Positions 1,777 to 19,671 of a DNA stretch of 21,648 nucleotides are shown piece after piece. The position numbers and the translations under genes are program-made. This DNA is from a virus. The first letter of the stretch is position 1, and every line of letters begins with the position of its first letter. The notes beneath the pieces were generated by a model. The model did no database searches, was not told the origin of the DNA, and was given only the letters and a program-made list of their open reading frames with translations. The stretch lies in the IMG/VR virus record IMGVR_UViG_3300033149_006321, positions 1-21,648 of that record. The stretch is one strand, 5' to 3'.

Positions 1777-1795
1777 GCGCGAAAAGGATTCGCGC
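1777..1795. terminator. Hairpin after the sigma operon
   Basis: Perfect inverted repeat GCGCGAA / TTCGCGC with a 5-base loop, beginning five bases after the sigma stop codon. There is no T-tract, so it is not a classic intrinsic terminator. Its right half overlaps the upstream part of the promoter-like element at 1780-1811, so it could instead be an operator. Confidence 0.4.
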
Positions 1796-1811
1796 CTCTC
1801 GCAAATATAGA
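1780..1811 (+). promoter_or_regulatory. Candidate phage promoter, copy 1
   Basis: CGAAAAGG (1780-1787), ten bases, then CTCGCAAATATAGA (1798-1811). The same two blocks with exactly the same 10-base spacing occur at 19640-19671, giving 27 of 32 identical positions. The element ends 35 bases before the ATG of the recombination operon, and a GGGAGAG ribosome site lies in between. AATATA/TATAGA resembles a -10 box; the CGAAAAGG block is not a standard -35 box, which would fit a phage sigma factor. Confidence 0.55.
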
Positions 1812-1846
1812 GAACTGGACCAGGCCACGAAGTCGGGAGAGTAAAC

Positions 1847-2662
1847 ATGGATGACCTGTTCATCGACCTGAGCGTCCTGACGCACGAGCCCGAGGAGGCA
1901 TACCACGCCAGGGCGGGCGAGTACCTGACGAGCCACCTGCTGGCCGACTTCCGCAAGAGCCCGCTGCTGTATCACGGCAAGGTCACCGGCGTGATCCCCG
2001 ACGAGGACCGGCCGGCCTATGTGCTTGGGCGGGAGGCGCACTGCCGCATCCTCGAAGGCGCCGAGGCATACGCTGAGCGGTACATCGTCGGCGACGGGCC
2101 CATCAACAAGACCACCGGCAATCCGTTCAAGAGCAACTCGAAGGCCTATCAGCGATGGGCCGCCGCCCAGGGCAAGCCGGTCGTCTCCACCAAGGATGAC
2201 GAGCTGATCAGGAATCTCGCGGCCGGTGTCGCCATGAACGCCCAGGCCGTGGACCTGATCTGCCACGGCGAAGCCGAGGGCGTGGTCCGCGCGGAGTACT
2301 GCGCGGTGGACTGCCAGGCGCGTCTCGACTGGGTTCACCCCCATCGCGGCATCGTCGACCTGAAGACGTGCGACGACCTGACGTGGTTCGAGGCGGACAG
2401 CCGCCGTTACGGCTACGTCTACCAGCTCGCGTTCTACCGCGCCGTCCTGGCGCGCGTCCTCGACGGCCTGCTCGTGCCCGTCCACGTCATCGCCGTGGAG
2501 AAGAAACAGCCTTTCCGCTGTGGCGTCTGGCGGCTTGGCGACAACGCCCTGGCCATCGCCCAGAAGGAGAACGAGGCGGCAATCCGCCGACTGCTCCGCT
2601 GCCGCGACCTGGGCGAGTGGCCGACCGGCTACGAGGAGATCCGCGTGCTCGACGCGGCGTAG
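1847..2662 (+). CDS. PD-(D/E)XK exonuclease, RecE C-terminal/DUF3799-like
   Basis: 271 residues; first gene of the recombination operon, with a GGGAGAG ribosome site. It is likely a 5'-3' dsDNA exonuclease producing 3' single-stranded tails for phage recombination. The RecE/lambda-exo style core is visible: GREAH near residue 61, an acidic GEAEGVVRAE at 141-150, RLDW (D161), VDLKT with D171 and K173 as the D...(D/E)xK catalytic set, and YVYQLAFYR (Q193) as the C-terminal motif. The next genes are a Sak4-like recombinase and a DUF669 protein, the expected partners. A RecB-family nuclease of other use is the main alternative. All catalytic residues appear present. Confidence 0.85.
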   Translation: MDDLFIDLSVLTHEPEEAYHARAGEYLTSHLLADFRKSPLLYHGKVTGVIPDEDRPAYVLGREAHCRILEGAEAYAERYIVGDGPINKTTGNPFKSNSKAYQRWAAAQGKPVVSTKDDELIRNLAAGVAMNAQAVDLICHGEAEGVVRAEYCAVDCQARLDWVHPHRGIVDLKTCDDLTWFEADSRRYGYVYQLAFYRAVLARVLDGLLVPVHVIAVEKKQPFRCGVWRLGDNALAIAQKENEAAIRRLLRCRDLGEWPTGYEEIRVLDAA

Positions 2663-2738
2663 GGCATGGAGGCCCAGGAGTGCCCGGGCGGATCAGGTGA
2701 GTCCAGCAGCAAGCGACGGCCGCCGCCCGGGCCGCTTC

Positions 2739-2810
2739 GGCAGGGCCGGGCTACCAGGGGCTCTTTGTCAAAAATCCCCTGGGACGCGGGTTCGACTCCC
2801 GCACCTGCCT
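2739..2810 (+). other. tRNA-like element without a D-arm (degenerate tRNA or attachment-site remnant)
   Basis: A perfect T-arm is seen: stem GCGGG (2786-2790), canonical loop TTCGACT, stem CCCGC (2798-2802). It is followed by ACCTGCC, whose last six bases pair with GGCAGG at 2739-2744, making a 72-base unit. The middle is not canonical: CCAGGGG (2754-2760) pairs with CCCCTGG (2776-2782) around a 15-base loop, and there is no D-arm and no CCA. The stretch before the T-arm (GGACGCGGGTTCGACTCC) also resembles the 3' end of many tmRNAs. It lies in the only sizeable gap of this operon (2663-2863). A working tRNA is unlikely; a remnant, mimic or old attP core fits better. Confidence 0.4.
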
Positions 2811-2812
2811 GT

Positions 2813-2826
2813 CGGCTGGCCAGCCG
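2813..2826. repeat. 14-base perfect palindrome
   Basis: CGGCTGGCCAGCCG reads the same on both strands and sits three bases after the tRNA-like element and 37 bases before the recombinase start codon. It could be an operator or a short hairpin in the leader. No T-tract follows. Confidence 0.4.
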
Positions 2827-2863
2827 TGTCGGACATCAACAACCCAAACATAAGGAACTACGA

Positions 2864-3652
2864 ATGTCAATCATGGCGAGCATCGAACGTGGGGTCCGCC
2901 ACAAGCCGCCCCGCTTGCTGATCTACGGCACCGAGGGCATCGGCAAGAGCAAGACGGCCTCCGAGGCGCCGAAGCCCATCTTCATCCCTACCGAGGACGG
3001 CCTGAACCAGATCGACTGCGACAGCTTCCCGTTGGCCACCAGCCTCGAGCAGGTCTTGAAGGCCCTGGAGGCGCTGGCGGACGAGCAGCACGACTACCAG
3101 GCGGTCGTCGTGGACACGCTCGACTGGCTGGAGCGGATGATCTGGGTGCAGGTCTGCGCCGACCGCGGCGTGAACAACATCGAGGACATCGGCTACCAGA
3201 AGGGCTACGTCTTCGCCCTGGACCACTGGCGCAAGATCGTCGACGGGCTGGACGTCCTCCGCAACCAGCGGGGCATGTGCGTCGTGCTGCTGGCCCACTC
3301 GAAGGTCGAGAAGTTCGAGGATCCCGAATCGCCGGCCTACGACCGCTACTCCCCGCGCCTGCACAAGCACGCGACGGCGATGATCACCGAGTGGGTGGAC
3401 GCGGTGCTCTTCGCCACGATGAAGGTGCACACGACCACGGAGGACGGGGGCTTCGGGCAGAAGCGCACCATCGCCACCCGGGGGGCGACCGACCGCGTCC
3501 TGCGGTGCATCGGCAGCCCCGCCTGCGTGGCGAAGAACCGCTTCAACCTGCCCGCGGAGATCCCCCTGTCCTGGCACGAACTGATGAACCACATGGCCGC
3601 CGGGATGGACCCCGACGCCGCCGAAACCCCCAAGGAGAACGTCAATGGCTGA
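2864..3652 (+). CDS. Sak4-like (AAA_24) RecA-fold recombinase ATPase
   Basis: 262 residues. The start is the ATG at 2864, with AAGGA about seven bases upstream. Walker A is GTEGIGKS (residues 22-29), Walker B is VVVDTLDW (81-88), and VLLAHSKVEKF (141-151) matches the sensor strand of the phage AAA_24 family. This family includes Sak4 proteins, RecA-core ATPases that promote single-strand annealing together with an SSB. It sits between a RecE-like nuclease and a DUF669 protein, its usual setting. The stop overlaps the next start by eight bases. The frame is open upstream to 2666, but that extension crosses the tRNA-like element and has no start as good as 2864. Confidence 0.85.
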   Translation: MSIMASIERGVRHKPPRLLIYGTEGIGKSKTASEAPKPIFIPTEDGLNQIDCDSFPLATSLEQVLKALEALADEQHDYQAVVVDTLDWLERMIWVQVCADRGVNNIEDIGYQKGYVFALDHWRKIVDGLDVLRNQRGMCVVLLAHSKVEKFEDPESPAYDRYSPRLHKHATAMITEWVDAVLFATMKVHTTTEDGGFGQKRTIATRGATDRVLRCIGSPACVAKNRFNLPAEIPLSWHELMNHMAAGMDPDAAETPKENVNG

Positions 3653-4103
3653 CCTGAACGGCTTCAACGCCCACGAAGTGGACCCCATCGCCTCGTTCGA
3701 GGCCATCCCGGCCGGCAAGTACCTGGCCGCCATCACCGACAGCGAGATGAAGGCCACCAAGAGCGGCTCGGGCAACTATCTCCAGCTGACCTTCACGATC
3801 CTGGAGGGCGACTACAAGAACCGCCTGGTCTGGGCCCGCCTCAACCTCAACAACCCCAACGACACGACCGTCAGGATCGCCCGCTCGGAGCTGTCGGCCG
3901 TCTGCCGGGCCGTTGGGGTCATGCAGCCGAAGGACAGCGTGGAGCTGCACAACATCCCGCTGGTGATCACCGTGAAGGTCAAGAAGCGCCAGGACACCGG
4001 CGAGCTGACCAACGAGGTCAAGGGCTACGAGCCCAAGTCGGCGGCGGCCGGCAAGCCCCAGCAGGCGCCCGCCAACAGCACCACCCCGCCGTGGCGAAGG
4101 TAG
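3645..4103 (+). CDS. DUF669 family protein, predicted single-stranded DNA-binding protein
   Basis: 152 residues. The pattern IPAGKYLAAITDSEMKATKS, then LQLTFTILEGDYKNRLVWARL, is typical of DUF669 phage proteins, which are considered SSB-like partners of Sak4 recombinases. The fold is probably an OB-type barrel across residues ~20-130. The tail is Pro- and Ala-rich and ends in PPWRR, without the acidic DDDIPF-type tip of bacterial SSB, so host proteins that recognise that tip would not be recruited in the same way. It overlaps the recombinase gene by eight bases and is followed 13 bases later by RusA, with GGAGGG in the gap as ribosome site. Confidence 0.8.
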   Translation: MADLNGFNAHEVDPIASFEAIPAGKYLAAITDSEMKATKSGSGNYLQLTFTILEGDYKNRLVWARLNLNNPNDTTVRIARSELSAVCRAVGVMQPKDSVELHNIPLVITVKVKKRQDTGELTNEVKGYEPKSAAAGKPQQAPANSTTPPWRR

Positions 4104-4116
4104 GAGGGAAGGCGGC

Positions 4117-5292
4117 GTGATCCTCGAACTCCCTTGGCCGCCCACGGCGAACACGTACTACCGCCACGTGGGCTACCGCACGCTGATCAGCCGGGAGGGC
4201 CGGGCGTTCCGCCGGAACGTCTGTGCCCTCCTGGGCGGCGGCGGGCCCCGCAAGCCCCCGGCCGGTGGGCGGATCGCCCTGTGCATGGATGCCTTCCCGC
4301 CGGACCGGCGCCGGCGCGACCTGGACAACCTCCTGAAATGCACCCAGGACTCCCTCTCCCATGCGGGCGTCTACGAGGACGACAGCCAGATCGACCTGCT
4401 GGCCGTGACGCGGCGGGATCCGATCCAGGGCGGCACGGTCGTGATTCGGATCGACGAATTCCCCCCCCCCGCCGCTGCCCGCTTTGTGGCAGCAGGTATC
4501 CCCTGGCAGAAAGCGAGCACACCCATGACAACTGAACCCCAGAACCTGAGGCTCGACCAGATCCGGATCGACGGCGGAACGCAGCCGCGCGTCGCCATCG
4601 ACGAGCAGGTCGTGGCCGAGTACGCCGACCTCTACGGCAGCGGCGTGGACCTGCCGCCTGTCACGGTCTTCTACGACGGCGCGGCCTACTGGCTGGCCGA
4701 CGGCTTCCACCGCTACTGGGCCAACAAGCGGATCGACTGCGAGTTCATCTTCGCCGAGGTCCACCAGGGCACCCAGCGGGACGCCCAGTGGTATTCGTTC
4801 GGCGCGAACGCCGAACACGGCTTGCGCCGGACACGCGAGGACGTGGCCACCATCCTGGAGAAGATCTTCTCCGACGAGAACTGGTCGCAAAAGTCGGACT
4901 ACGAGGTAGCGGATCACACCGGCATCCCTCGCAGCACAGTCCAGCGTCACAAGGAACGCCATCTAGCCCAAATGGGCCAGATAGACAGCGGCGAACGCGA
5001 GGTCAGGCGCAAGGGCCAGACCTACAAGATGAACACGGCCAACATCGGTCGCCGCCGGTCCCCCGCGAAGCCCTCGCCGCCGCGACAGATCATGACCAAG
5101 GAGGAATACGAGGCGGGAGGCGAGGCCGAGCCGCGCGCCGACGCGCCGCCCGCCGGGGCCAAGCAGCCCAGCATCGCCATCCAGCGGGGCTACGAGGCCA
5201 TCGCCGTCCTGAAGTCCATCAACCCGGGCGACCCGCGCCGAACCGAGGCCATGCACATGGTGCGGGACTGGATCATCGACAACTTCGGCTGA
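4117..5292 (+). CDS. rusA: RusA Holliday-junction resolvase reading in frame into a ParB-like protein
   Basis: As written, one 391-residue frame from GTG 4117. Residues 1-115 are RusA-like: LELPWPPTANTYYR at the N-terminus, RRRDLDNLLKCTQDSL with acidic residues D68 and D70, and VYEDDSQI (D88, D89). These are the metal-binding acids of the dimeric resolvase that cuts Holliday junctions. At residues 115-119 a run of ten C (4461-4470) encodes FPPPA. From residue 137 (an in-frame ATG at 4525) a normal ParB-like protein starts. One C fewer would end RusA at TGA 4526-4528, overlapping that ATG as ATGA; one C more would end it at 4533-4535. I therefore think two overlapping genes are more likely than a true fusion. 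Confidence 0.7.
   Translation: MILELPWPPTANTYYRHVGYRTLISREGRAFRRNVCALLGGGGPRKPPAGGRIALCMDAFPPDRRRRDLDNLLKCTQDSLSHAGVYEDDSQIDLLAVTRRDPIQGGTVVIRIDEFPPPAAARFVAAGIPWQKASTPMTTEPQNLRLDQIRIDGGTQPRVAIDEQVVAEYADLYGSGVDLPPVTVFYDGAAYWLADGFHRYWANKRIDCEFIFAEVHQGTQRDAQWYSFGANAEHGLRRTREDVATILEKIFSDENWSQKSDYEVADHTGIPRSTVQRHKERHLAQMGQIDSGEREVRRKGQTYKMNTANIGRRRSPAKPSPPRQIMTKEEYEAGGEAEPRADAPPAGAKQPSIAIQRGYEAIAVLKSINPGDPRRTEAMHMVRDWIIDNFG
4461..4470 (+). repeat. C10 homopolymer at the RusA/ParB junction
   Basis: Ten consecutive C after GAATT. Both alternative frames after the run stop within a few bases of the downstream ATG at 4525. The run therefore decides whether one fused or two separate proteins are read. 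It may be a sequencing error, a slippage site or a real fusion point. Confidence 0.85.
4525..5292 (+). CDS. ParB-like nuclease/DNA-binding domain protein (likely true start of the second half)
   Basis: 255 residues if started at ATG 4525; this is the C-terminal part of the fused frame. LRLDQIRIDGGTQPRVAIDEQ is the usual ParB N-terminal strand pattern, and WLADGFHRYWAN (about residue 53) stands at the ParB nucleotide-binding box. YEVADHTGIPRSTVQRHKE (~128-146) is a helix-turn-helix. The C-terminal third is a linker rich in Pro and Ala plus a short helical end. The ribosome site is weak (AGCGAG), which would fit translational coupling to RusA. Such stand-alone phage ParB-like proteins are common and most have no tested role; a DNA-binding regulator or a partition-type clamp is possible. 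Confidence 0.65.
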   Translation: MTTEPQNLRLDQIRIDGGTQPRVAIDEQVVAEYADLYGSGVDLPPVTVFYDGAAYWLADGFHRYWANKRIDCEFIFAEVHQGTQRDAQWYSFGANAEHGLRRTREDVATILEKIFSDENWSQKSDYEVADHTGIPRSTVQRHKERHLAQMGQIDSGEREVRRKGQTYKMNTANIGRRRSPAKPSPPRQIMTKEEYEAGGEAEPRADAPPAGAKQPSIAIQRGYEAIAVLKSINPGDPRRTEAMHMVRDWIIDNFG

Positions 5293-5327
5293 GACCCCCA
5301 GCCGCCAAGAACGCACAGGAGAACCCC

Positions 5328-6089
5328 ATGCGCGTCAAGAAAACGAAGGACTACTCGATCTTCTCGATGACGGCCCGCAACCGGGCCGTGCGTCTGGACA
5401 ACGCCAAGCGGCGACGACTCACGCAGTCGATGCAGCAGCACGGCTTCATCCCCGCCTACCCCATCTACGTCTGGCGGGTGGACGGCCGGCTGGAGATTCA
5501 GGACGGCCAGCACCGCCTGGCGGCCGCCAAGATGCTCGGCCTGCCCGTGTACTACATGGAAGTGCCGCACCCGATCGACATCCCCCGCATCCAGAACACC
5601 CAGGCGCCCTGGTCGATCCGCGACTACGGCGAGTCGTACGCCAACGCGGGCAGCCCGCACTACCAGGAGCTGCTGGAGTTCGCGGACATCCACGAGATCC
5701 CCATCGGCACCGCCCGCGACATCCTGGGCAATCGCGTCGGCGGGCGATCTGGGCAGGTTACCGCCAAGTTCAAGCGCGGCGACTGGCAGGTCACCTCGCG
5801 CGAGAACGCCGAGCGCGTCGTGCACCTGCTCTCGGCGATCACCGCGGTCGCGCCGCAATGCCGCAGCCGGTTCCTGATCGCCGCGCTGTTCGCCTACAGC
5901 CTCATCGAGGGCACCGACGACCGGCAGCTGACGGCCAACCTCCATCGCAAGCCGGAGCTGGCGCGGCAGTACGGCTCGCGGGACGGCTACCTGGACATGC
6001 TGGAGCAGATCTACAACTTGCGCGCCCGCCAAGCGGTGCCGATCCGCGTCTACGCCGAGAACATGCTCAAGTTGCGCCGCCGCCGGTAG
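5328..6089 (+). CDS. Second ParB/DGQHR-type domain protein
   Basis: 253 residues, with CAGGAG six bases before the ATG. Residues 22-76 hold a ParB-like domain: RRRLTQSMQQHGFIPAYPIY, then LEIQDGQHRLAAAKMLGLPV. The DGQHR box is the version seen in many phage and mobile-element ParB-like proteins. The remainder is mostly helical, very basic at the C-terminus (MLKLRRRR), and not recognised. It follows the first ParB-like gene by 35 bases and precedes the NDT-like gene by 14, so it is in the same operon. The two ParB-like proteins are not close copies. Role unknown; DNA binding is likely. Confidence 0.7.
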   Translation: MRVKKTKDYSIFSMTARNRAVRLDNAKRRRLTQSMQQHGFIPAYPIYVWRVDGRLEIQDGQHRLAAAKMLGLPVYYMEVPHPIDIPRIQNTQAPWSIRDYGESYANAGSPHYQELLEFADIHEIPIGTARDILGNRVGGRSGQVTAKFKRGDWQVTSRENAERVVHLLSAITAVAPQCRSRFLIAALFAYSLIEGTDDRQLTANLHRKPELARQYGSRDGYLDMLEQIYNLRARQAVPIRVYAENMLKLRRRR

Positions 6090-6103
6090 GAGACCAAGCA
6101 CAG

Positions 6104-6764
6104 ATGAGCGATCCGAAACGCATCTACATCGCCGGGCCGATGACGGGCCTGCCCGAGCACAACTTCCCGGCCTTCCACGCGGCGGCCGAGCGCCTCAAGG
6201 AGGCCGGCTGGGAGACCGTCAATCCGGCCGAGAACTTCGGCGGGCGGACCGACCTCCCGCGCGAGCTATCTCAGGGCCGACATCGAACTCCTGGCCGCAT
6301 GCGACGCCGTGGCCATGCTGGCGGGCTGGGAGGACTCGCGGGGGGCGAAGCTCGAGTACCTGATTGCCTGGGAGCTCGGCATTCCGGTCTTCGACATGGC
6401 CACGCTCCAGCCGATCGGGCCGAATCCCCCGGTGCCGTCCGTCAACCTTCACCGCCCTGCCGTCGTTCGGGACCAAGAGGCCGAGGCGCCCGAATCCCTG
6501 CTGGACGAGGCCAAACGCATCACGGGCGGCACTCGGCGGGAGGATTACGGACACCCGGCCGACGACTTCGCCAAGACGGCGCGGATGTGGACCGGGATCC
6601 TCGCCGCCAAGCTGATCGACGGGGCCGAGGTCACGGCGATGGACGTGCCCCTCTGCATGATTGCCGTCAAGCTCGCACGCCAGGCCCACCGCCACAAGCG
6701 GGACAACCTCGTGGACATCGCAGGCTACGCCCGGACGGCGGCCATGGTCGCGGGGGACGAGTGA
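6104..6764 (+). pseudogene. NDT-like (DUF4406) plus DUF6378 protein, interrupted by a frameshift
   Basis: The frame from ATG 6104 starts as a DUF4406 protein (RIYIAGPMTGLPEHNFPAF, then NPAENFGGRTDLP), the nucleoside 2-deoxyribosyltransferase-like fold. After ~6260 that frame turns to nonsense. The family continues in another frame from ~6261: SYLRADIELLAACDAVAMLA, GWEDSRGAKLEYLIAWELGI, then a DUF6378 domain with RREDYGHPADDFAKTARMW and HKRDNLVDIAGYARTAAM. The break is in CGCGCG (6258-6263); one extra CG unit restores DLPRASYLRAD. The repaired protein is about 220 residues. It would act on nucleosides or nucleotides, but substrates of these phage proteins are not established. Both halves look well kept, so a sequencing or assembly error is as likely as a recent mutation. 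Confidence 0.7.
6309..6764 (+). CDS. Downstream open part of the frameshifted gene, with DUF6378 domain
   Basis: 151 residues from the first in-frame ATG after the frameshift. It begins inside the NDT-like domain (MAMLAGWEDSRGAKLEYLI) and so lacks the glycine-rich N-terminal strand. Residues ~70-150 are the DUF6378-like region with YGHPADDFAKTARMW and MIAVKLARQAHRHKRDNLVD. No ribosome site is seen before 6309, so this start is probably not natural. The stop overlaps the next start by one base (TGATG). Best read together with the upstream half starting at 6104. Confidence 0.5.
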   Translation: MAMLAGWEDSRGAKLEYLIAWELGIPVFDMATLQPIGPNPPVPSVNLHRPAVVRDQEAEAPESLLDEAKRITGGTRREDYGHPADDFAKTARMWTGILAAKLIDGAEVTAMDVPLCMIAVKLARQAHRHKRDNLVDIAGYARTAAMVAGDE

Positions 6765-7534
6765 TGGCCAAGGCGCACAGCAAAACGTTCCTGGCCTTCG
6801 GCGACGTGCACGTGCCCCACCAGAACGGCCCGGCGCTGGAGGTGTTCTGCCGCGCGGCGGAACGCCTCCGGCCGGATCTGATCGTCTGCCTGGGCGATCT
6901 GCTCGACTGCGGGCAGTTCTCGACGCACCCGCCGACGTACGGCATGCCGGAGACGGACTACGTGGACGACCTTCGCGTGGCCAACGCGCTGCTCGACCGT
7001 CTCCAGGCCGCGTGCGGCCGGTTGATCATGGTCGAGGGCAATCACGAGTATCGTCTCGACCGCTGGGCGGCCGCGACGGCCGAGGGGCGGGGTGCCTACT
7101 CGATGCTGGCGCCGCGCATCCGGCTCATGAAGGGCCGGTCGAAGTGCACGTACGTGCCGTACGGGTCGGTCCAGGGGCGCTACCCGCACTACCAGCTCAA
7201 CAGCCGCGTGATCGCCGTCCACGGCTGGTCGTACGCCAAGCACGCGACGAAGAACCACCTCCAGGTCAGCCAGGGCAAGAGCGTCATCCACGGGCACACG
7301 CACCGCGCCGATACCAGCATCGTGCAGAACATCTGGTCGCCGGGGAAGGTCATCCAGGCCCGCAGCGCCGGCTGCCTGTGCAAACCCATTCCGCTGTACG
7401 GCACCGGCCGGCCCGTCGAGTGGGTCAACGCCTTCATCCTGGGCTACCTCGGCCGGCGCAGCGACACGCTCTACACCATCCCGATCCTCGGCGGGCGCTG
7501 CATCTTGCCCGACGGCGCGGAGGTGGCGGCATGA
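6764..7534 (+). CDS. Calcineurin-like metallophosphoesterase
   Basis: 256 residues. All metal-binding motifs of the family are seen in order: FGDVH (12-16), LGDLLD (43-48), EGNHE (91-95), AVHGWS (H153) and IHGHTH (175-180). It would hydrolyse a phosphomonoester or diester with two metal ions. Phage relatives often sit in replication blocks, but their substrates are seldom known. There is no signal peptide, so it is cytoplasmic. It starts on the last base of the preceding stop (TGATG) and ends in an ATGA overlap with the helicase, so all three are translationally coupled. A DNA-end or nucleotide phosphatase is an inference from its neighbours. Confidence 0.85.
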   Translation: MAKAHSKTFLAFGDVHVPHQNGPALEVFCRAAERLRPDLIVCLGDLLDCGQFSTHPPTYGMPETDYVDDLRVANALLDRLQAACGRLIMVEGNHEYRLDRWAAATAEGRGAYSMLAPRIRLMKGRSKCTYVPYGSVQGRYPHYQLNSRVIAVHGWSYAKHATKNHLQVSQGKSVIHGHTHRADTSIVQNIWSPGKVIQARSAGCLCKPIPLYGTGRPVEWVNAFILGYLGRRSDTLYTIPILGGRCILPDGAEVAA

Positions 7535-9258: not shown

Positions 9259-9267
9259 GGTAACGCC

Positions 9268-11907: not shown

Positions 11908-12086
11908 CACGTTTAACACACGTTTAGCACGGGGTGCTAAACGTGCCAAGTCTGGGGCCGAAAAACGCCCCCACGTTTCGCACGTTTCGCACACGTTTAG
12001 CAGGGGGTTTGCTAAACGTGGGGGCGGTCGTAAGTATAGATATAACAACAACACACTCTCTCTCTATCTCCACGTTTCACACGTTT
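11908..12086. repeat. CACGTTT repeat array, candidate replication origin
   Basis: Seven direct CACGTTT copies start at 11908, 11919, 11972, 11981, 11992, 12071 and 12080; two inverted copies (AAACGTG) are at 11939-11945 and 12014-12020. Adjacent direct copies are 9 or 11 bases apart, about one helical turn. Two perfect hairpins form: CACGTTTAGCAC with GTGCTAAACGTG (11919-11945, 3-base loop), and CACGTTTAGC with GCTAAACGTG (11992-12020, 9-base loop). An AT-rich patch at 12031-12050 (16 of 20 A or T) lies between the sub-arrays, in otherwise GC-rich DNA. Iteron-like sites plus an unwinding element next to helicase and primase genes suggest an origin; an operator cluster for a ParB-like protein is the alternative. 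Confidence 0.65.
12027..12040 (+). promoter_or_regulatory. Weak third copy of the phage -10-like element
   Basis: GTCGTAAGTATAGA matches the CTCGCAAATATAGA block of the two strong copies at 11 of 14 positions. The CGAAAAGG block is not found at the expected distance upstream. If active, it would start a transcript running through the leader hairpin at 12140-12178 into the operon beginning at 12197. Confidence 0.3.
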
Positions 12087-12139
12087 ACACCCACCCCCCC
12101 ACGATGCAGGATTTTGGCCTCTGCGCGTGCGCGCGGGGG

Positions 12140-12178
12140 GTCTGCGAAGCGAGACCTGCTAAGGCAGGTTCGCCAGAC
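12140..12178 (+). promoter_or_regulatory. Bulged hairpin in the leader of the Cys-rich gene
   Basis: GTCTG (12140-12144) pairs with CAGAC (12174-12178), GCGA (12149-12152) with TCGC (12170-12173), and ACCTGC (12154-12159) with GCAGGT (12164-12169). The loop is TAAG. There is a 4-base bulge (CGAA) and a 1-base bulge on the 5' side. The hairpin ends three bases before the GGAAGGAAGG ribosome site, so folding or protein binding could affect translation of the gene at 12197. It could also simply be a spacer hairpin. Confidence 0.45.
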
Positions 12179-12196
12179 ACGGAAGGAAGGCAAACC

Positions 12197-12689: not shown

Positions 12690-13999
12690 AGATTGAGCTG
12701 CGTGACATCGACGCGATCCGCCCGTACGAGGGCAACCCCCGCGTCAACGACCAGGCCGTGGACGCCGTGGCCGAGAGCGTCCGCCGGTTCGGCTTCCGCC
12801 AACCGATCGTGGTGGACGCCGACGGCGTGATCGTTTGCGGCCACACCCGCTGGAAGGCCGCGAAGAAGCTCGCCTTGGCGAAGGTGCCCGTGCACGTCGC
12901 CAAGGACCTGACGCCGGAGCAGGTGCGGGCGTACAGGCTGGCCGACAACAAGACGAACGAGCTGGCCGAGTGGAACATGGAACTCCTGCCCATCGAGCTG
13001 GCGGCGCTGGAGAACACGGACATCGACCTGTCGCTGCTCGGCTTCGACGCCGACGATCTGGCCAAGCTGCTCGACCCGGGCGTCCAAGACGGCCAGACCG
13101 ACCCGGACGAAGTGCCGGCGCCGCCGGATGAGGCGATCACGCGCCCGGGCGACTTGTACATCCTCGGCGAGCACCGCCTGTTGTGCGGGGACAGCGGCAA
13201 GCCGGACGACGTCGACCGCCTGCTCGACGGCGCCTCGATCCACCTGGTGAATACCGACCCGCCCTACGGGGTCAAGGTCGCCCCGCGCAGCGGCAACGCG
13301 ATGGTCGCTGCCCAGGCCAAGAAGAAGTACACCGGTCAGCAGGGCATGGACGCCAAGCTCCGCGGCCGGGTCCACGCCACCACCGAGAAGATGCGCCCCA
13401 AGGACCGGCCCCTGGAGGGCGACTTCGTCTCGGACGAGGAGTTCACCCGAATGCTGCGGGCGTGGTTCGGCAACGTCCAGCGCGTGCTGCTGCCCGGCCG
13501 TGCCTTCTACATCTGGGGGGGCTACAGCAACATTTGGAACTACCCCAACGCCCTCCGCGACTGCGAGCTGTACTTCTCGCAGATGATCATCTGGGTCAAG
13601 GAGCACCCGGTCCTCACGCGGAAGGACTTCATGGGCAACCACGAGTGGTGCTTCTACGGATGGAAGGAGGGCGCCGCCCACGTCTTCTACGGCCCGGCGA
13701 ACGTCTCGGACGTCTGGTCCGTGAAGAAGGTCAACCCCAACCAGATGATCCACTTGACGGAGAAGCCCGTCGAGTTGGCCGTGCGGTGCATGCAGTACTC
13801 GTCGCTGGCCGGCGAGAACGTCCTGGACCTTTTCGGCGGCTCCGGGAGCACGTTGATCGCCGCTGAGCAGACGGGCCGGCGGGCGTTCCTGATGGAGATC
13901 GACCCGCTGTACGCGGACGTCATCGTCCAGCGGTGGGAGCAGTTCACCGGCAAGAAGGCCGAGCGCATCGCAGCCGCAGCCGAGGAGGCAGCAGCGTGA
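12686..13999 (+). CDS. ParB-like domain fused to a beta-class DNA methyltransferase
   Basis: 437 residues, GGAGG before the ATG. Residues 1-130 are a ParB-like domain (IDAIRPYEGNPRVND, then GVIVCGHTRWKAAKKLAL). Residues 150-425 are an N4-cytosine/N6-adenine methyltransferase: DPPYG (191-195) is catalytic motif IV, LTEKP (357-361) is the conserved motif before the SAM site, and DLFGGSGST (381-389) is SAM-binding motif I. Motif IV comes before motif I, the beta-class order. The ParB part may help find DNA; such fusions are frequent in phages. It is probably an orphan enzyme protecting phage DNA from host restriction or timing DNA events, since no restriction gene lies beside it. The target sequence is not predictable from this. 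Confidence 0.9.
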   Translation: MKIELRDIDAIRPYEGNPRVNDQAVDAVAESVRRFGFRQPIVVDADGVIVCGHTRWKAAKKLALAKVPVHVAKDLTPEQVRAYRLADNKTNELAEWNMELLPIELAALENTDIDLSLLGFDADDLAKLLDPGVQDGQTDPDEVPAPPDEAITRPGDLYILGEHRLLCGDSGKPDDVDRLLDGASIHLVNTDPPYGVKVAPRSGNAMVAAQAKKKYTGQQGMDAKLRGRVHATTEKMRPKDRPLEGDFVSDEEFTRMLRAWFGNVQRVLLPGRAFYIWGGYSNIWNYPNALRDCELYFSQMIIWVKEHPVLTRKDFMGNHEWCFYGWKEGAAHVFYGPANVSDVWSVKKVNPNQMIHLTEKPVELAVRCMQYSSLAGENVLDLFGGSGSTLIAAEQTGRRAFLMEIDPLYADVIVQRWEQFTGKKAERIAAAAEEAAA

Positions 14000-14418
14000 G
14001 CAAGCCAGCAGAGAAAGGGCCGACGGGCGTGGTCCAGGTGCTTGAGCGTTTCCTGGACGCCGAGCTCCGCCAGGAGGTCATCGGCGGCGTGTCGCTGGCG
14101 GACGTGCTGGACTTCGTCGACCTGGACGTGGCGTACAGCCCCGTGGTCGAGCACCCGGTCGATGACGACTGGCCGCGGCCGGAGCGGTTGCGCGTGATCG
14201 CGCTGGTGAAGCGCGACGACGGGCGGTACGAGGCGCGGCGCCAGACACCCGCCGGGCCGACGTTCGAGCTCTTCGATCCGGGGCAGGTTCGCATCATGCG
14301 CGCCCGGTATCTGCTCTGCCGCGACCACTTTGCCCGCTCCATCGAGAGCTACGGCTACTCCGACCGGCAGCGGATCCTGGCCGACTTCTTCCCCCATGGT
14401 CTGTGGAGGCCGAAGTGA
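13996..14418 (+). CDS. Small protein of unknown function downstream of the methyltransferase
   Basis: 140 residues from GTG 13996, overlapping the methyltransferase stop as GTGA. I do not recognise it. It is acidic in its first half (LADVLDFVDLDVAYSPVVEH), followed by an alternating pattern (RLRVIALVKRDDGRYEARRQ) that looks like a beta sheet, and a basic, aromatic end (YGYSDRQRILADFFPHGLW). No membrane segment or signal peptide. Its coupling to the methyltransferase and the next gene suggests one operon. Function unknown. Confidence 0.65.
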   Translation: MSKPAEKGPTGVVQVLERFLDAELRQEVIGGVSLADVLDFVDLDVAYSPVVEHPVDDDWPRPERLRVIALVKRDDGRYEARRQTPAGPTFELFDPGQVRIMRARYLLCRDHFARSIESYGYSDRQRILADFFPHGLWRPK

Positions 14419-14648
14419 TCTTCCACCCCCGCATCGGACAGCGCGTCCGCGTGCACTACGCCAAGCGGGCCGCGACCGTCATGCCGCACCACGGCAAGGG
14501 CGGCTTCGTGCGGATCGTCACCACCGGCTCCGGGCCGCGGAACGTCGGCGTGGAGATCGGCGGGCGGCTCGTGGTGGTCCCACGCGGCAATCTGGTGGCT
14601 GAGAGCGCCCCGGCCTCAGGGACCGGGGCGCAGGAGGTGGGGAGTTGA
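14415..14648 (+). CDS. Small basic beta-rich protein, KOW-like in appearance
   Basis: 77 residues from GTG 14415, with GGAGG seven bases upstream and a GTGA overlap with the previous stop; a GTG at 14403 is a weaker alternative. The sequence IGQRVRVHYAKRAATVMPHHG, then VGVEIGGRLVVVPRGNLV, suggests a small beta barrel of the type that binds nucleic acid, but I cannot name a family. The last 15 residues are encoded by the strong hairpin at 14605-14631. It is the final gene of the plus-strand operon, eight bases from the convergent minus-strand gene. Confidence 0.6.
   Translation: MIFHPRIGQRVRVHYAKRAATVMPHHGKGGFVRIVTTGSGPRNVGVEIGGRLVVVPRGNLVAESAPASGTGAQEVGS
14605..14631. terminator. Strong GC hairpin at the convergent operon junction
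   Basis: GCGCCCCGG (14605-14613) pairs perfectly with CCGGGGCGC (14623-14631) around nine bases. It lies inside the last codons of the plus-strand operon and 26 bases beyond the stop of the minus-strand operon, where a shared bidirectional terminator is expected. There is no T-tract on either side. Confidence 0.45.
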
Positions 14649-14656
14649 TGGTCGCG

Positions 14657-15271
14657 CTACTTGGCCAGGGCGAACTTGCCGCGGTCGACCTTGCGGAAGC
14701 GGCTGGCGTCGCCCTTCGTGGCGATCTCTCTGATGATTGCGGCATAAATCGTCGCCGAAGGCGTCCGTCCGCCGGTCTGCCAGAGGCCCTTGGCCAGCAT
14801 CCGCTCGACCATCTCCTTGCAGCCCATCGGCTCGCCGGCCTCGGCCAGGACCTGCGCCGCGGCGTCCAGGCCGCTCGGCTTGCGCTGCTTGGCGGGCTTG
14901 TCGCCCTTGGGCTGGCGCTTCTTCTTGTCGGCGGCGACGGCCTGCATCGCGGCGTTGACGGCGTCGGCCTTCGTGGCTTCGGTGATCCCGCCGCGCTTCT
15001 TGCGGGCCGTCGGCACCTTGACGCCCTTCGCCAGATCGCCCTTCTCGGCAGCCTCGACCGTCGCGGCCACGTCGGGCTTGGCCTTCTGGCCAGGCCCGCG
15101 CGTCTCGTGACGCAGGCGCTGGGCACTCTTGATGCGGACCTTCTTCTTCGTCGTCAGGTTCGTGGCGTCCCACCCGCCTCGCGGGTTCTCCGCGTCGATG
15201 CGGACGGTCGCCATCCGGCCGGACACTTTCGCGGCGTAGAAGCCGCCCACTTTGACCTCGTCCTTCTTCAT
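14657..15271 (-). CDS. HARE-HTH-like winged-helix protein
   Basis: 204 residues, with AGGAG before the ATG. Residues 1-55 (VKVGGFYAAKVSGRMATVRI, then WDATNLTTKKKVRIKSAQRL) look like a small beta domain. Residues 56-130 are a Lys- and Ala-rich linker. Residues 132-203 (GLDAAAQVLAEAGEPMGCKE, MVERMLAKGLWQTGGRTPSA, TIYAAIIREI, FRKVDRGKFALA) match the HARE-HTH (HB1/ASXL) winged helix, which is linked in bacteria to restriction enzymes and DNA modification. It is the last gene of the minus-strand cassette. A DNA-binding regulator or modification-related protein is plausible. The winged-helix call is good; the role is inference. Confidence 0.75.
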   Translation of the reverse strand: MKKDEVKVGGFYAAKVSGRMATVRIDAENPRGGWDATNLTTKKKVRIKSAQRLRHETRGPGQKAKPDVAATVEAAEKGDLAKGVKVPTARKKRGGITEATKADAVNAAMQAVAADKKKRQPKGDKPAKQRKPSGLDAAAQVLAEAGEPMGCKEMVERMLAKGLWQTGGRTPSATIYAAIIREIATKGDASRFRKVDRGKFALAK

Positions 15272-15296
15272 CGCTGCATCTCCTCGTGCTGGGGGC

Positions 15297-15473
15297 CTAC
15301 GAGGCCCAGTCCTTCAGGAACGCGACCCACTCGTCGCGCGTCATCGGTTCGTGCGCTTCGGTCGCCTCGTCGTCCTCGACCCGCCACAGCGACGGGTCGA
15401 TCGGGTCGGCTGACACGCGTGCTCTGCCGCGTGCGAGGCGATTGGCCTGCTCGATGGTCAGCGTCTGTTCCAT
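15297..15473 (-). CDS. Small acidic protein of unknown function
   Basis: 58 residues from ATG (complement of 15471-15473), chosen because AAGGAG lies six bases before it. A TTG at 15494 would lengthen it by seven residues but has no such site. It starts MEQTLTIEQANRLARGRARV and ends EPMTRDEWVAFLKDWAS, likely two short helices around an acidic middle. I recognise no domain. It lies 18 bases after the 200-residue gene and 25 before the winged-helix gene of the same strand. Confidence 0.6.
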   Translation of the reverse strand: MEQTLTIEQANRLARGRARVSADPIDPSLWRVEDDEATEAHEPMTRDEWVAFLKDWAS

Positions 15474-15490
15474 GCGGTTCTCCTTGGCGT

Positions 15491-16093
15491 TCAAATGCCC
15501 AGCTCGTCGTAGAGCCGATTGAGCTGCTCGGGCCCGCCGACCAGTTCGATGAGCGTGTCAGCGAACCAGCGGACCTGGCGGTTGACGGCCTCGTCGTTCG
15601 TCCGGACCGACTCGAGGTGCGCTACCATCGCCGCCACGGTCTGCGGCGAGAGGTTCTCGCGGAGTGCTTCGGCCAGAGAACTGACGGCCTTGTCGTGCCG
15701 AACCGGCTTCTGGCCGGCGGCGTGGTCCCGGTCCCAGAAGGCCAGGATCTCGTCGTCGCTGTAGCCCTTGCGGCGGAAGTACGCCAGGTCGCTGGGCGAG
15801 AACATGGGATGGTTCGCGATGCGCTCGGCGGTTCCGGGCGCGTCGTCGTCCTGGCTCTCCGGGACGGTCACGCGGACCTTCCGGCCGGCGTGCTCCGCCT
15901 CGTACGTCTTGGGTCGCTTGCGCTTCATGATCGTCACTTGGAACGTGGTGCCGTCCTTGCACCGCACCACGACGCCGCGGTTGCCGGTCAGCACGCCGGC
16001 CTCCTCGAACGTCCGGACGCCGGCGACCTCCGGGACGATCTCCTCGTCCTGGAGCGTCTCGTACAGCATGGTCTCCATCTCGATCTCGTTCAT
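15491..16093 (-). CDS. Unknown protein of the minus-strand cassette
   Basis: 200 residues, with AAGGAG before the ATG. The N-terminal half is acidic and then basic (EIEMETMLYETLQDEEIVPE; RGVVVRCKDGTTFQVTIMKR). The middle contains FSPSDLAYFRRKGYSDDEIL, which reads like a short helical DNA- or protein-binding motif. The C-terminal 60 residues are helical (LSPQTVAAMVAHLESVR and on). No catalytic motif, membrane segment or signal peptide is visible. No family recognised. It is separated from the gene upstream of it by 117 bases with a palindromic element. Confidence 0.6.
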   Translation of the reverse strand: MNEIEMETMLYETLQDEEIVPEVAGVRTFEEAGVLTGNRGVVVRCKDGTTFQVTIMKRKRPKTYEAEHAGRKVRVTVPESQDDDAPGTAERIANHPMFSPSDLAYFRRKGYSDDEILAFWDRDHAAGQKPVRHDKAVSSLAEALRENLSPQTVAAMVAHLESVRTNDEAVNRQVRWFADTLIELVGGPEQLNRLYDELGI

Positions 16094-16164
16094 GTCGGTC
16101 TCCTTGTGCCGGGTAGCGCCGGCCGCGCCGCCGACGTCCGGCCGTCCGGGCGCCCGCGGCGGGG

Positions 16165-16198
16165 CCGCCTGCCCGCCGTAGCCTCGGCGGAGGCGGGT
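16165..16198. repeat. GC-rich palindromic (REP-like) element
   Basis: The core CCGCCG (16173-16178), TAGCCT, CGGCGG (16185-16190) is a perfect hairpin, flanked by further complementary GCCTGCC/GGCGGGT bases. It sits in the 117-base gap (16094-16210) between two minus-strand genes. On the minus strand it reads CCGCCGAGGCTACGGCGGGC, which resembles a widespread palindromic repeat I recall from several bacterial phyla. Only one copy is in this window, so repeat status is inferred. Confidence 0.4.
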
Positions 16199-16210
16199 GC
16201 CCCGCGTCGG

Positions 16211-16495
16211 TCAGTCCTCGAAGATGGCGATCGCTCTGCGGTACTCGGCGACGTCGCCGTTCGTGCCGCGGCAGCCGTCCAGGTGGCGCTGGAGCGTCCG
16301 GGCGGCTTGGTCGTTGGCGAACGTCTCCCAGGCGTCCGCGTGGACGACGAACGGCTCGGTCACCAGGCTTGTCCGACCGTCCTTCGTCTCGATGGCCTTG
16401 ACCAGCCGGTGGCCGGTGATCTCGATGCACCGGCCGACCCGGCGGATCGTTGCCGTCCCGTTCGTGCCCTCGATGTCGATTCGCGTGGTCCTCAT
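16211..16495 (-). CDS. Unknown small protein of the minus-strand cassette
   Basis: 94 residues, GGAG eleven bases before the ATG. The first 55 residues alternate hydrophobic and charged positions (TTRIDIEGTNGTATIRRVGR, then IEITGHRLVKAIETKDGRT), suggesting a small beta sheet. The rest is helical (DAWETFANDQAARTLQRHL). No known domain. It starts 12 bases after the stop of the first cassette gene, so the two are likely co-transcribed. Confidence 0.6.
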   Translation of the reverse strand: MRTTRIDIEGTNGTATIRRVGRCIEITGHRLVKAIETKDGRTSLVTEPFVVHADAWETFANDQAARTLQRHLDGCRGTNGDVAEYRRAIAIFED

Positions 16496-16507
16496 GGTCG
16501 TGGTCTC

Positions 16508-16738
16508 CTACTCGGCGTGCAGTGCGATGATGGTCCGGGGCGTGTACCCGCAGCGCCGGGCCTCGGCGTTGATGGCCTTGCGGACGGCGCTGCCGGGCCG
16601 GGCGGCCAGATAGATGCCCGCCAGGCGCTTCCAGCCCAGCCGCTCGATCCGGCGGACCCCGCCGCGCCCGGCGGCCAGCAGCCACCGCAGCGTCGCGGCG
16701 GCGTTCTTCGCGTTCGTCTTGGTCTTCTTCGCGTCCAT
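16508..16738 (-). CDS. Small basic protein, first gene of the minus-strand cassette
   Basis: 76 residues, with AAGGAG seven bases before the ATG; a longer upstream frame is a shadow of the terminase genes. It is strongly basic: MDAKKTKTNAKNAAATLRWL, LGWKRLAGIYLAARPGSAVR, then RRCGYTPRTIIALHAE. The residues around 45-70 could form a helix-turn-helix, and nucleic acid binding is likely from charge alone. As first gene after the divergent region it could regulate the cassette, but no family is recognised. Confidence 0.6.
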   Translation of the reverse strand: MDAKKTKTNAKNAAATLRWLLAAGRGGVRRIERLGWKRLAGIYLAARPGSAVRKAINAEARRCGYTPRTIIALHAE

Positions 16739-16858
16739 CGGTTTCTCCTTCCGCATGTTCATGACCACATGGGGCCGAGAAACCGCCGAAAAGCCAAGGG
16801 AAACCCCCAAAAACATGCAGATTCCCGAATCTCTTATGCTCCGCTGAGGGCGTGACTT
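16739..16858. promoter_or_regulatory. Divergent promoter/operator region
   Basis: 120 bases between the leftward cassette and the rightward terminase genes. It is less GC-rich than its flanks. AGATTC (16819-16824) and GAATCT (16827-16832) form a perfect inverted repeat with two bases between, a likely operator. TTATGCT follows at 16834-16840 and could be a -10 box for the terminase genes. CGAAAAG at 16787-16793 recalls the first block of the twin promoter element, but the second block does not follow convincingly. Confidence 0.4.
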
Positions 16859-17155
16859 ATGGCCAGTGGGCGAGATTCTTCGAAGGTTCCCGGCGGCCCG
16901 GCTGGCCGATCGTCGCCCCGCGCCGCCCCCGGCGGACGGCGGGCGACGGCCCCGCCGGCCGGGAAGCTGGACCCCGGCGCCCTGACGGTCGAACAGGCGG
17001 CGAAGATTCTGGCGGCCGTGGGCGGCCGGCACGCGACGGCCGACGTCATCCGCCGGCACATCGACCGGGGGGCGCCCACGACGGCGGACGGGCGGATCAA
17101 CCTGGTGCACTACACGGCGTGGCTGGTGCGGGAGATGGCCGGTGGCGAAGAATGA
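16859..17155 (+). CDS. Terminase small subunit-like DNA-binding protein
   Basis: 98 residues. The first 40 are disordered, rich in Gly, Pro and Arg. Residues 42-92 (ALTVEQAAKILAAVGGRHAT, then RRHIDRGAPTTADGRINLVH) look like a DNA-binding helix bundle, and the end HYTAWLVREM closely resembles RYAAWLIDTL in the N-terminus of the next protein. Its place directly before the terminase large subunit, overlapping it by 14 bases, fits a small subunit that recognises the packaging site. It is shorter than most small subunits. A general DNA-binding protein is the alternative. Confidence 0.5.
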   Translation: MASGRDSSKVPGGPAGRSSPRAAPGGRRATAPPAGKLDPGALTVEQAAKILAAVGGRHATADVIRRHIDRGAPTTADGRINLVHYTAWLVREMAGGEE

Positions 17156-19418
17156 TCCCAGGCGACTGCGGCCGTCGGCGCTGGTTCGGGCGCTGAACTC
17201 CACGCCGTTGGGCGAGGTGATCAGCGAGCGCCAGCTCTACCGCCACCGCTCCCGCGCGGGCTTCCGCATCGGCGACGACCAACACGTGGACCTGCTGCGC
17301 TACGCCGCGTGGCTGATCGACACACTGGAGGAGCGGGCGGAAGCCGCCGCCGATCCGAAAGCGGCCTACGAGGCGACGAAGGCCCGCGCCGCGGCGCGGA
17401 ACGCCGAACTGGCCCGGGCCGGCCAGGACATCGGGGAGATTCCGGCCGTGGAGGCGCCGGAGCGGAAGGCCAAGGCGGCGGGCAACTTCCGCTTCTTCTG
17501 CGAGACGTACTTCCCGGAGATCTTCTACCTGCCGTGGTCGCGTGACCACCACCGGGTCATCGAGAAGATCGAACGCGCCGTGCTCAATGGCGGCCTGTTC
17601 GCCATGGCCATGCCGCGCGGCAGCGGCAAGACCGTCCTGTGCCAGACGGCCGTGGTGTGGGCGGCGCTGACGGGCGCCACGCCGTTCGTCTGCCTGATCG
17701 CGGCCAGTGCCGAACGGGCGAAGAACCTGCTGGAGACGATCAAGACCTGGCTGGAGACCAACCCGCTGCTGCACGCCGACTGGCCCGAGGTGACCTACCC
17801 GATCCGCTGCCTGGAACGGATCACCAACCGGCAGAAGGGCCAACGGTACGGGGGCGAGCCGACGCGGATCGAGTGGTCGGCCGACAAGATCGTGCTCCCC
17901 ACCATCACGGACAGCCGGGCCAGCGGCGTGGTGATCTCCTGCTCGGGAATGAAGGGCTCGGACATCCGCGGGCAGAACCACGCCCGGGCCGATGGGCAAG
18001 TGGTCCGCCCGCAGCTCGTGATGGTCGACGACCCGCAGACGACCGAGTCGGCCTGGTCCCCCTCGCAGTCGCAGCGCCGCGAGGCGATCCTGGCCGGCGA
18101 CGTGCTGGGAATGGCAGGGCCGGGCAAGAAGATCGCCGGGCTGATGTGCGCCACCGTGATCCGGCCCGGGGACATGGCCGACAAGATCCTGGACCGGGAG
18201 AAGCACCCGGAGTGGCAGGGCGAACGCACGAAGCTGATCTACTCGTTCCCGACGGCGGAGAAGCTCTGGGCGCGCTACGCCGAGCTCCGCGCCGACAGCC
18301 TGCGGAACGACGGCGACGGCCGGGAGGCCACGCGGTTCTACCGCGAGCACCGGGCCGAGATGGACGCCGGCGCCGTCGTCGCCTGGCCCCAGCGGCACAA
18401 CGAGGACGAGCTGTCGGCCATCCAGCACGCGATGAACTTGAAGCTCCGGGACGAGGCGGCGTTCTTCGCGGAATACCAGAACGAGCCGATGCTCGAGGAG
18501 GAAGGCTCCGCCACGCTGACGGCCGACCAGATCGCCGCGAAGACCAACGGGCAGCGGCGGGGAGAGATCCCGCTGGGCGCCAGCCACCTGACGATGTTCG
18601 TGGACGTCCAGGCCCGGATGCTGTTCTACGTGGTGGCCTCGTGGGAGGACGACTTCACGGGCTACGTGGTGGACTACGGGGCGTGGCCGGACCAGAAGCG
18701 GCAGTACTTCACGCTCCGCGACGCCCGGCGGACGCTGGAACGGGCGTCTCCCAAGGCCGGTGTGGAAGGCGCCATCTACGCCGGCCTGGAGGCATTGACG
18801 GGAGACTACCTGGCACGCCAGTGGCGGCGGGGCGACGGGGCGATGGTGAAGATCGACCGCTGCCTGATCGACGCCAACTGGGGCCAGTCGACGGACGTGG
18901 TCTACCAGTTCTGCCGACAGAGCGCAAGCTCGGCCATCCTGCTGCCCAGCCACGGCAAGTACGTCGGGGCGACCAGCACGCCGTTCAGCGAGTACAAGCG
19001 CAAGCGCGGCGATCGCATCGGGCACCACTGGCGGATTCCCAACGTGCAGGGCCGACGGCAGGTCCGCTACGTCCTGGTGGACACCAACTACTGGAAGAGC
19101 TTCGTCCACGCCCGCCTGGCCGTCGCGATGGGCGACCGGGGCTGCCTTTCGCTCTTCGGCCGCAAGGCCGAGGAGCACCACCTCTTTGCCGAGCACCTGA
19201 CGGCCGAGTACCCGGTGCGGGCGGAGGCCCGCGGCCGCGTGGTGGACGAGTGGAAGATCCGCGCCACGGCACCCGACAACCACTGGCTTGATTGCCTGGT
19301 CGGCTGCGCCGTGGCCGCCAGCGTCCAGGGCGCCGTCCTGCCGGGCACGGAGGCCGCCGTCACCCAGTCGCGTCAACGCATCCGCCTGTCGGAATTGCAG
19401 GGGAGGAGCCGCCGGTGA
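17142..19418 (+). CDS. Terminase large subunit with extra N-terminal domain
   Basis: 758 residues from GTG 17142 (GGGAGA upstream), longer than the usual 450-650. Residues 1-115 are an extra region: a small-subunit-like motif (RQLYRHRSRAGFRIGDDQHV, RYAAWLID), then a charged helix. The ATPase follows: MPRGSGKT (157-164) is Walker A, QLVMVDDPQ (291-299) is Walker B with Asp-Asp where Asp-Glu is common, and GLMCATVI (333-340) is the coupling motif. The nuclease part has FVDVQ (D488), LIDANWG (D578) and DNHWLDCLVG (D717), like the GpA-type RNase H fold. It packages DNA into the prohead and cuts concatemers. It is the first gene of the head module and is coupled to the next gene (GTGA). Confidence 0.9.
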   Translation: MAKNDPRRLRPSALVRALNSTPLGEVISERQLYRHRSRAGFRIGDDQHVDLLRYAAWLIDTLEERAEAAADPKAAYEATKARAAARNAELARAGQDIGEIPAVEAPERKAKAAGNFRFFCETYFPEIFYLPWSRDHHRVIEKIERAVLNGGLFAMAMPRGSGKTVLCQTAVVWAALTGATPFVCLIAASAERAKNLLETIKTWLETNPLLHADWPEVTYPIRCLERITNRQKGQRYGGEPTRIEWSADKIVLPTITDSRASGVVISCSGMKGSDIRGQNHARADGQVVRPQLVMVDDPQTTESAWSPSQSQRREAILAGDVLGMAGPGKKIAGLMCATVIRPGDMADKILDREKHPEWQGERTKLIYSFPTAEKLWARYAELRADSLRNDGDGREATRFYREHRAEMDAGAVVAWPQRHNEDELSAIQHAMNLKLRDEAAFFAEYQNEPMLEEEGSATLTADQIAAKTNGQRRGEIPLGASHLTMFVDVQARMLFYVVASWEDDFTGYVVDYGAWPDQKRQYFTLRDARRTLERASPKAGVEGAIYAGLEALTGDYLARQWRRGDGAMVKIDRCLIDANWGQSTDVVYQFCRQSASSAILLPSHGKYVGATSTPFSEYKRKRGDRIGHHWRIPNVQGRRQVRYVLVDTNYWKSFVHARLAVAMGDRGCLSLFGRKAEEHHLFAEHLTAEYPVRAEARGRVVDEWKIRATAPDNHWLDCLVGCAVAASVQGAVLPGTEAAVTQSRQRIRLSELQGRSRR

Positions 19419-19576
19419 AGACCGCTCGTCCGCCCGTTGGACTCGAGTGCCCCCGCTGCGGGTGCCGTCACTTTCGCGTCATCTACACGCGCCCCCGCAA
19501 CGGCTTCATCCTCCGCCGCAAGGAGTGCCGCCACTGCGGCCGCCGCGTGGTCACACGGGAGCGGATGGGCGCCTGA
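19415..19576 (+). CDS. Small zinc-ribbon protein resembling the NrdR N-terminus
   Basis: 53 residues from GTG 19415, overlapping the terminase stop, with GGGAGGAG upstream. LECPRCGC and KECRHCGRRV give a CxxC...CxxC ribbon. The linking residues (RVIYTRPRNGFILRRKEC) match the zinc ribbon of NrdR, the repressor of ribonucleotide reductase genes, but the ATP-cone domain is absent. It would bind zinc and possibly DNA. It could be a phage transcription factor that mimics or blocks NrdR, or a small packaging accessory. The likeness is by pattern only. A terminator-like hairpin follows its stop. Confidence 0.65.
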   Translation: MKTARPPVGLECPRCGCRHFRVIYTRPRNGFILRRKECRHCGRRVVTRERMGA

Positions 19577-19578
19577 CC

Positions 19579-19594
19579 GGCCTCCACGGAGGCC
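19579..19594. terminator. Hairpin after the terminase operon
   Basis: Perfect GGCCTCC / GGAGGCC inverted repeat two bases after the stop codon of the zinc-ribbon gene. The loop is only two bases, so a 6-bp stem with a 4-base loop is the practical form. No T-tract. As with the hairpin at 1777, it is followed by the promoter-like element. Confidence 0.4.
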
Positions 19595-19639
19595 CGAATT
19601 CCATATCTGTAACGATTTGCTCCCTCATCGGCCTCTTGT

Positions 19640-19671
19640 CGAAAAGGTCTGGCCCCACTCGCAAATATAGA
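19640..19671 (+). promoter_or_regulatory. Candidate phage promoter, copy 2
   Basis: CGAAAAGG (19640-19647), ten bases, then CTCGCAAATATAGA (19658-19671): same blocks and same spacing as at 1780-1811. It ends 18 bases before the ATG of the head operon, with GAGG as ribosome site between. This copy is not inside an inverted repeat, which shows that the conservation is not due to a hairpin. Confidence 0.55.

Follow-up and report, generated by a model that had tools for sequence, protein, structure and literature searches.

A twin promoter-like element and its candidate sigma factor in a lambda-type phage probably infecting Planctomycetota

Gene content of the window and its twin element

The window analysed in this study is a stretch of 21,648 bases, the whole of an IMG/VR contig, and represents part of a lambda-type phage that also encodes a primase-polymerase. 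Relatives of its portal protein in GTDB genomes belong to Planctomycetota in 79 of the 80 loci listed (the remaining one is labelled Fimbriimonadales) and include the complete genome of Planctomycetales bacterium ZRK34 (CP050848), so the host is very probably a planctomycete. The genes and features relevant here are as follows.

150..722, +, sigma-1, a sigma-70 region 2 protein (Pfam, 3.4e-11)
757..1041, +, 94-aa protein between the two sigma genes; it follows sigma-like genes also in relatives G005, G006 and G011
1038..1772, +, sigma-2, an ECF-like sigma factor with regions 2 and 4 (Pfam, PDB profile, AlphaFold/Foldseek, covariation)
1780..1811, +, promoter-like element, copy 1, ahead of the recombination/replication operon; CGAAAAGG (-35-like) at 1780-1787, CTCGCAAATATAGA (-10-like) at 1798-1811
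1847..2662, +, DUF3799/exonuclease VIII-like nuclease, which opens the recombination operon
2864..3652, +, Sak4-like AAA annealing protein
3645..4103, +, DUF669/single-strand DNA binding protein
17142..19418, +, large terminase, gpA type; its operon precedes copy 2
19412..19576, +, small zinc-ribbon protein, the final gene ahead of copy 2
19599..19612, no strand assigned, degenerate copy of the palindrome TTCCATATMTGGAA, upstream of copy 2
19640..19671, +, promoter-like element, copy 2, ahead of the head operon; CGAAAAGG at 19640-19647, CTCGCAAATATAGA at 19658-19671
19690..19887, +, 65-aa protein that opens the head operon; every relative examined has it conserved ahead of the portal gene
19887..21335, +, portal protein, lambda family (Pfam, 8.5e-61)

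The element CGAAAAGG-N10-CTCGCAAATATAGA occurs on the plus strand at both sites with all 22 specified bases present, and the two copies are identical at 27 of 32 positions with equal spacing. The coordinates, strand and identity given for this twin in the first-pass annotation were all reproduced, and shuffled sequence gave no match to it. By chance, 0.017 pairs of 32-base sequences equally alike would be expected across the record as a whole, and about 0.0001 within its approximately 1.7 kb of non-coding DNA. The -35-like block (CGAAAAG) and the -10-like block (GCAAATRTAGA) lie about 18–20 nt apart, a two-block geometry that fits sigma promoters; the blocks may also be written CGAAAAG and AAATATAG. 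Copy 1 ends 35 nt before its ATG (1847) and copy 2 ends 18 nt before its own (19690), consistent with the distances of 18–35 bases described earlier. No sigma-70 promoter (TTGACA/TATAAT with 16–18 nt spacing) was found in either region.

The record holds no further copies. A third, partial copy had been proposed at 12027-12040, but it lacks the upstream block (16 of 32 positions) and 0.39 matches of equal quality are expected by chance, so this site was rejected. The first-pass annotation had also placed a hairpin at the end of the operon preceding each copy. Hairpins do exist, but they have no T tracts, and that of copy 1 (GCGCGAA-AAGGA-TTCGCGC, 1777-1795) overlaps the element instead of preceding it, while that of copy 2 (GGCCTCC-AC-GGAGGCC, 19579-19594) lies 45 nt upstream; no intrinsic terminator (GC-rich hairpin plus T run, plus strand) was called before either copy, and the idea of preceding terminators was dropped.

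Other non-coding features of the window include a perfect 9-bp inverted repeat, ATCGGCCTC/GAGGCCGAT, at 19627-19635 and 19677-19685, which flanks copy 2 only. L171, L174, L176, L178, L190 and L192 carry the palindrome TTCCATATMTGGAA at 75–100 nt before the head operon; apparently common to several element classes, it is possibly a separate operator. At 2732-2809 there is a tRNA-like remnant (acceptor stem GGCAGG/CCTGCC plus a T arm) that is not called by ARAGORN, and in its place G003 and G004 (L217, L218) carry a called tRNA-Met(CAT). Directly after the primase-polymerase gene, at 11912-12090, a cluster of CACGTTT repeats with inverted repeats (CACGTTTAGCA...TGCTAAACGTG) looks like a replication origin.

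Distribution and concerted change of the element in relatives

The same element was found at the corresponding positions of related phages. In L212 and L213 the sequence CGAAAAGGATTCGCCCCTCACGCAAATGTAGA separates the exonuclease gene from the gene of a sigma-2 with 62% identity, and in L038 and L127 it lies ahead of the 65-aa head gene. The first-pass annotation had proposed scanning relatives for the two blocks; across all of IMG/VR (2.9 million contigs), the full-element pattern was present in five contigs, every one at these two operon starts (exonuclease sites in L212 and L213, head sites in L127, L038 and L388), with the consensus CGAAAAG-N5-GCSC-N2-CNCGCAAATRTAGA. The 14-base -10-like block alone is uninformative, since it occurs in 111 IMG/VR contigs, and almost every one is an unrelated phage in which the upstream block is missing. 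On its exonuclease side G003 has the element, and at its head site a different and unpaired one. Many relatives have no sigma element in the spacer ahead of the head operon, which contains instead a terminator-like run and a gene for tRNA-Met(CAT) (including L116, 9673-9744; L121, 1594-1666; L130, 962-1033; and L159, 7082-7153). Several portal-bearing, prophage-like regions are present in a single host genome in Rhodopirellula rubra (L321, L323, L325) and Rubripirellula obstinata (L328, L329).

More widely, among relatives that comprise phages and prophages, nearly all of Planctomycetota, a gene orthologous to sigma-2 adjoins the recombination operon, and the spacers after the sigma gene and before the head operon of one genome share an element whose sequence differs from genome to genome. 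Pairwise spacer comparison has been advocated for finding phage-sigma promoters (PMC4331800). In the present study, the two regions were compared in the 19 genomes that carry both, and own-pair scores were set against 20,000 permutations; for G011, the exonuclease-side region was shifted upstream of an inserted 94-aa gene, where the element had already been shown (the homologue of the window's 94-aa protein being the first gene after the element in that genome). The summed own-pair score was 465; the permuted sums averaged 215.6 (sd 22.1, maximum 388), and none of the 20,000 permutations was as good. Own pairs above the shuffled maximum of 14.4 numbered 13. A twin element of the genome's own kind is thus seen in 13 of 19 genomes, in about nine classes, and no twin was found in the other six by this spacer comparison.

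The classes differ in sequence. G007 has GGCATAGGTAACCAGTAA twice, G015 has GCAACAAAA-N9-CTGCAGAAGTAG three times, G031 has GCGGGACACAT-N7-AC-YY-GCGGAAGTAAGAGGGTG three times, G011 has a GACA block plus GGYGGTAGGTAGTGAAGG three times, and G038 (ZRK34) has CGGGAC-N-G-N-CTCTGC-N2-GTT-N2-CATAGGTAACTAGAG twice; further kinds occur in G023, G033, G036 and G025. Third copies stand ahead of integrase or recombinase genes in G002, G011, G015, G025 and G031, the operon so marked encoding DUF2924 and a serine recombinase in G002, G011 and G025, a serine recombinase in G015, and an excisionase-like HTH protein with a tyrosine recombinase in G031 (the recombinase types were read off the translations and do not come from a family search). 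In G002, two of the sites share a different upstream block, and the -10-like block alone is common to all three.

The complete 5.7-Mb genome of ZRK34 could be searched as a whole. With up to three mismatches allowed, its element, with CATAGGTAACTAG, is found only at the two expected sites (5,488,931-5,488,967 and 5,503,932-5,503,968) of a prophage spanning approximately 5.488–5.505 Mb. The promoter reading predicts few copies or none at other places, and that is what was found.

The sigma-like proteins and element class

Sigma-2 has the features of a sigma factor. All 15 aligned orthologues match PF04542 (sigma-70 region 2) and five of the 15 match PF08281 (region 4); for the window's own protein, the region 4 match (Sigma70_r4_2, E=2.8e-4) scores below the curated cut-off. 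When a family profile was run against the PDB, it hit solved structures of several kinds of sigma factor. AlphaFold predicts confident helical domains at residues 58–145 and 178–238 with a disordered linker between them, and the best Foldseek matches of this model in the PDB are ECF sigma factors, with low TM-scores, as the linker leaves undefined how the domains are arranged.

Both sigma-like proteins of the window had been put forward as readers of the element. Relative G002 carries the element and a single sigma-like gene, a sigma-2 orthologue (40% identical), which makes sigma-2 (1038-1772) and not sigma-1 the candidate reader; sigma-2 would so suffice for the element in G002, a record that could be incomplete. 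Sigma-1, which G002 lacks, was set aside, and no element of its own was found when the spacer after sigma-1 was compared with the head region in G005 and G006.

In most genomes a sigma-like gene precedes the first site; in G033 and G036 it is divergent from the exonuclease gene. All seven genome pairs with a sigma identity of at least about 0.40 share an element across sites (scores 15–36), while among pairs below about 0.40 only 2 of 84 exceed the null maximum, and the one of these that was inspected matched unrelated sequence. Eight pairs are particularly instructive, as their portals are 75–82% identical and their sigma proteins only 21–28%: none shares an element (10.1–12.7, the null level), and some of their exonucleases are up to 84% identical. 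The element tracks sigma identity, not portal or exonuclease identity, and linkage does not explain the swap pairs, since the portal gene lies beside the head site and the sigma gene about 15–18 kb away. Genome pairs are not independent, and no formal p-value is therefore claimed for this comparison, which replaced a Mantel correlation and was chosen after the weak correlation had been seen. Over all pairs, the rank correlation between element similarity and sigma identity is weak (0.14–0.23) and the Mantel correlation on sigma identity does not surpass those on portal or exonuclease identity, the reason being that most sigma pairs have an identity of about 20–30% and the compared head regions hold other shared sequence.

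Within the sigma proteins, the helix of the helix-turn-helix appears to vary with the upstream block, although this was read by eye and is suggestive only: SRSSLYRR, SRSSLYER and HPSTVYRA go with GACACATT, GACACATA and GACAAATT, and SPSAITR or SPATITR with the CGAAAAG block.

Proposed role and comparison with known systems

On this evidence it is highly probable that the two 32-base elements are phage-specific promoters read by the host polymerase together with the phage's sigma-2. The phage very probably switches its gene blocks on with a private transcription factor of its own, as the tags of its relatives change together with the adjoining sigma-like protein. The earlier reading of a promoter served by a phage sigma factor is strengthened accordingly by the relatives, in which both sites change together and in step with sigma. 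For sigma-2 and its element, we infer binding, transcription start and timing along the following lines. Some other promoter would first give rise to sigma-2, which would bind host core RNA polymerase and recognise both blocks; it would then fire the neighbouring recombination/replication operon and, at a distance of 18 kb, the head operon, and in relatives also the integrase/recombinase operon, the whole forming a small private regulon. Several observations count against this scheme, namely the different upstream block of G002, the unpaired head element of G003, the six genomes without a twin, the weak rank correlation, and the short leader predicted at head sites, where at copy 2 a start 6–9 nt downstream would leave 10–14 nt with the Shine-Dalgarno sequence at the 5' end.

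Could the elements instead be operators for a phage repressor or activator, with the sigma-like protein incidental? Genome-specific paired sites before operons are also typical of repressor operators, some head genes have the separate palindrome upstream, and the elements of G033 and G023 are partly self-complementary. The window copies, however, lack dyad symmetry (identity to their own reverse complement at 4 of 32 and 8 of 32 positions), the two-block spacing and the single orientation toward the operon are kept, and the element class goes with the identity of the sigma-like protein, which together render operators improbable. Even less credence is given to promoters read by a sigma factor of the host and not by a phage protein, since there is no sigma-70 match, the classes differ among close phage relatives and go with the phage sigma gene, and the ZRK34 chromosome has no copy outside the prophage; in its favour, the TATA-like block resembles a loose -10 box, and planctomycetes have many ECF sigma factors.

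An equally small chance is allowed for elements that act in RNA, as leader control, or that are boundary sequences promoting the exchange of modules between phages. These phages are mosaic, and copy 2 stands against the ribosome-binding site and between the arms of the 9-bp inverted repeat; yet copy 1 has no flanking repeat and the two copies carry different self-complementary stretches, and boundary sequences would be expected to be common to different genomes if they are to aid exchange, whereas the elements differ between genomes and match within them.

With sigma-directed promoters as the preferred reading, it is tempting to view these phages as one family with many mutually orthogonal sigma–promoter pairs, at least nine promoter classes occupying the same two or three operon starts, in which gene order was kept while the scattered sites were replaced along with the sigma gene; we would place this somewhat short of an even chance. 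If true, sigma–promoter classes may act like immunity groups, so that co-resident prophages do not cross-activate one another. More generally, the findings suggest that a handful of private promoters drives the lytic programme of lambda-type phages in Planctomycetota. The proposed sigma–promoter pairs form a natural series in otherwise similar genomes, so how residues of regions 2 and 4 specify the bases of the -10 and -35 blocks is directly testable, and they could yield orthogonal promoter parts.

No report of gene control in lambda-type Planctomycetota phages, or of such a sigma family, was found in the literature searched, which included few subscription journals. Phage sigma-like proteins that reprogram the host RNA polymerase include gp55 of T4 and gp28 of SPO1. 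T4 and SPO1 are large and lytic, and each has many promoters in its genome as well as accessory proteins, unlike the window phage. Sigma-2 resembles bacterial ECF sigma factors (SigH, SigE/RpoE, CnrH, AlgU) in having region 2, a linker and region 4, but it is a phage gene with no anti-sigma gene recognised next to it. ECF promoters have motifs of the GGAAC/GTC kind, which the window element does not resemble.

The closest known systems are phages 7-11 and phiEco32. Salmonella phage 7-11 has the sigma factor gp47 and late promoters of the form GTAAtg-(16)-aCTA (PMC8948821), and resembles the proposed scheme in having a phage sigma with regions 2 and 4 that takes the host RNA polymerase to a small number of two-block promoters before gene blocks, gp47 and sigma-2 being likened by layout and promoter use and not by sequence kinship. 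It differs in being lytic with eight late promoters, where the present phages have two or three sites and are lambda-type, prophage-forming and of Planctomycetota. In E. coli phage phiEco32, the sigma factor gp36 uses the promoter tAATGTAtA (PMC8948821), a -10-like motif resembling AAATGTAGA, but gp36 has no region 4 and its promoters are without a -35 block, both of which have counterparts here in region 4 and the upstream block. At similar positions of their genomes, phiEco32 and 7-11 have promoters that are unlike each other (PMC8948821), a swapping that is the same pattern as in the window family; what sets the latter apart is that about nine specificity classes would occur inside one lambda-type, prophage-forming family.
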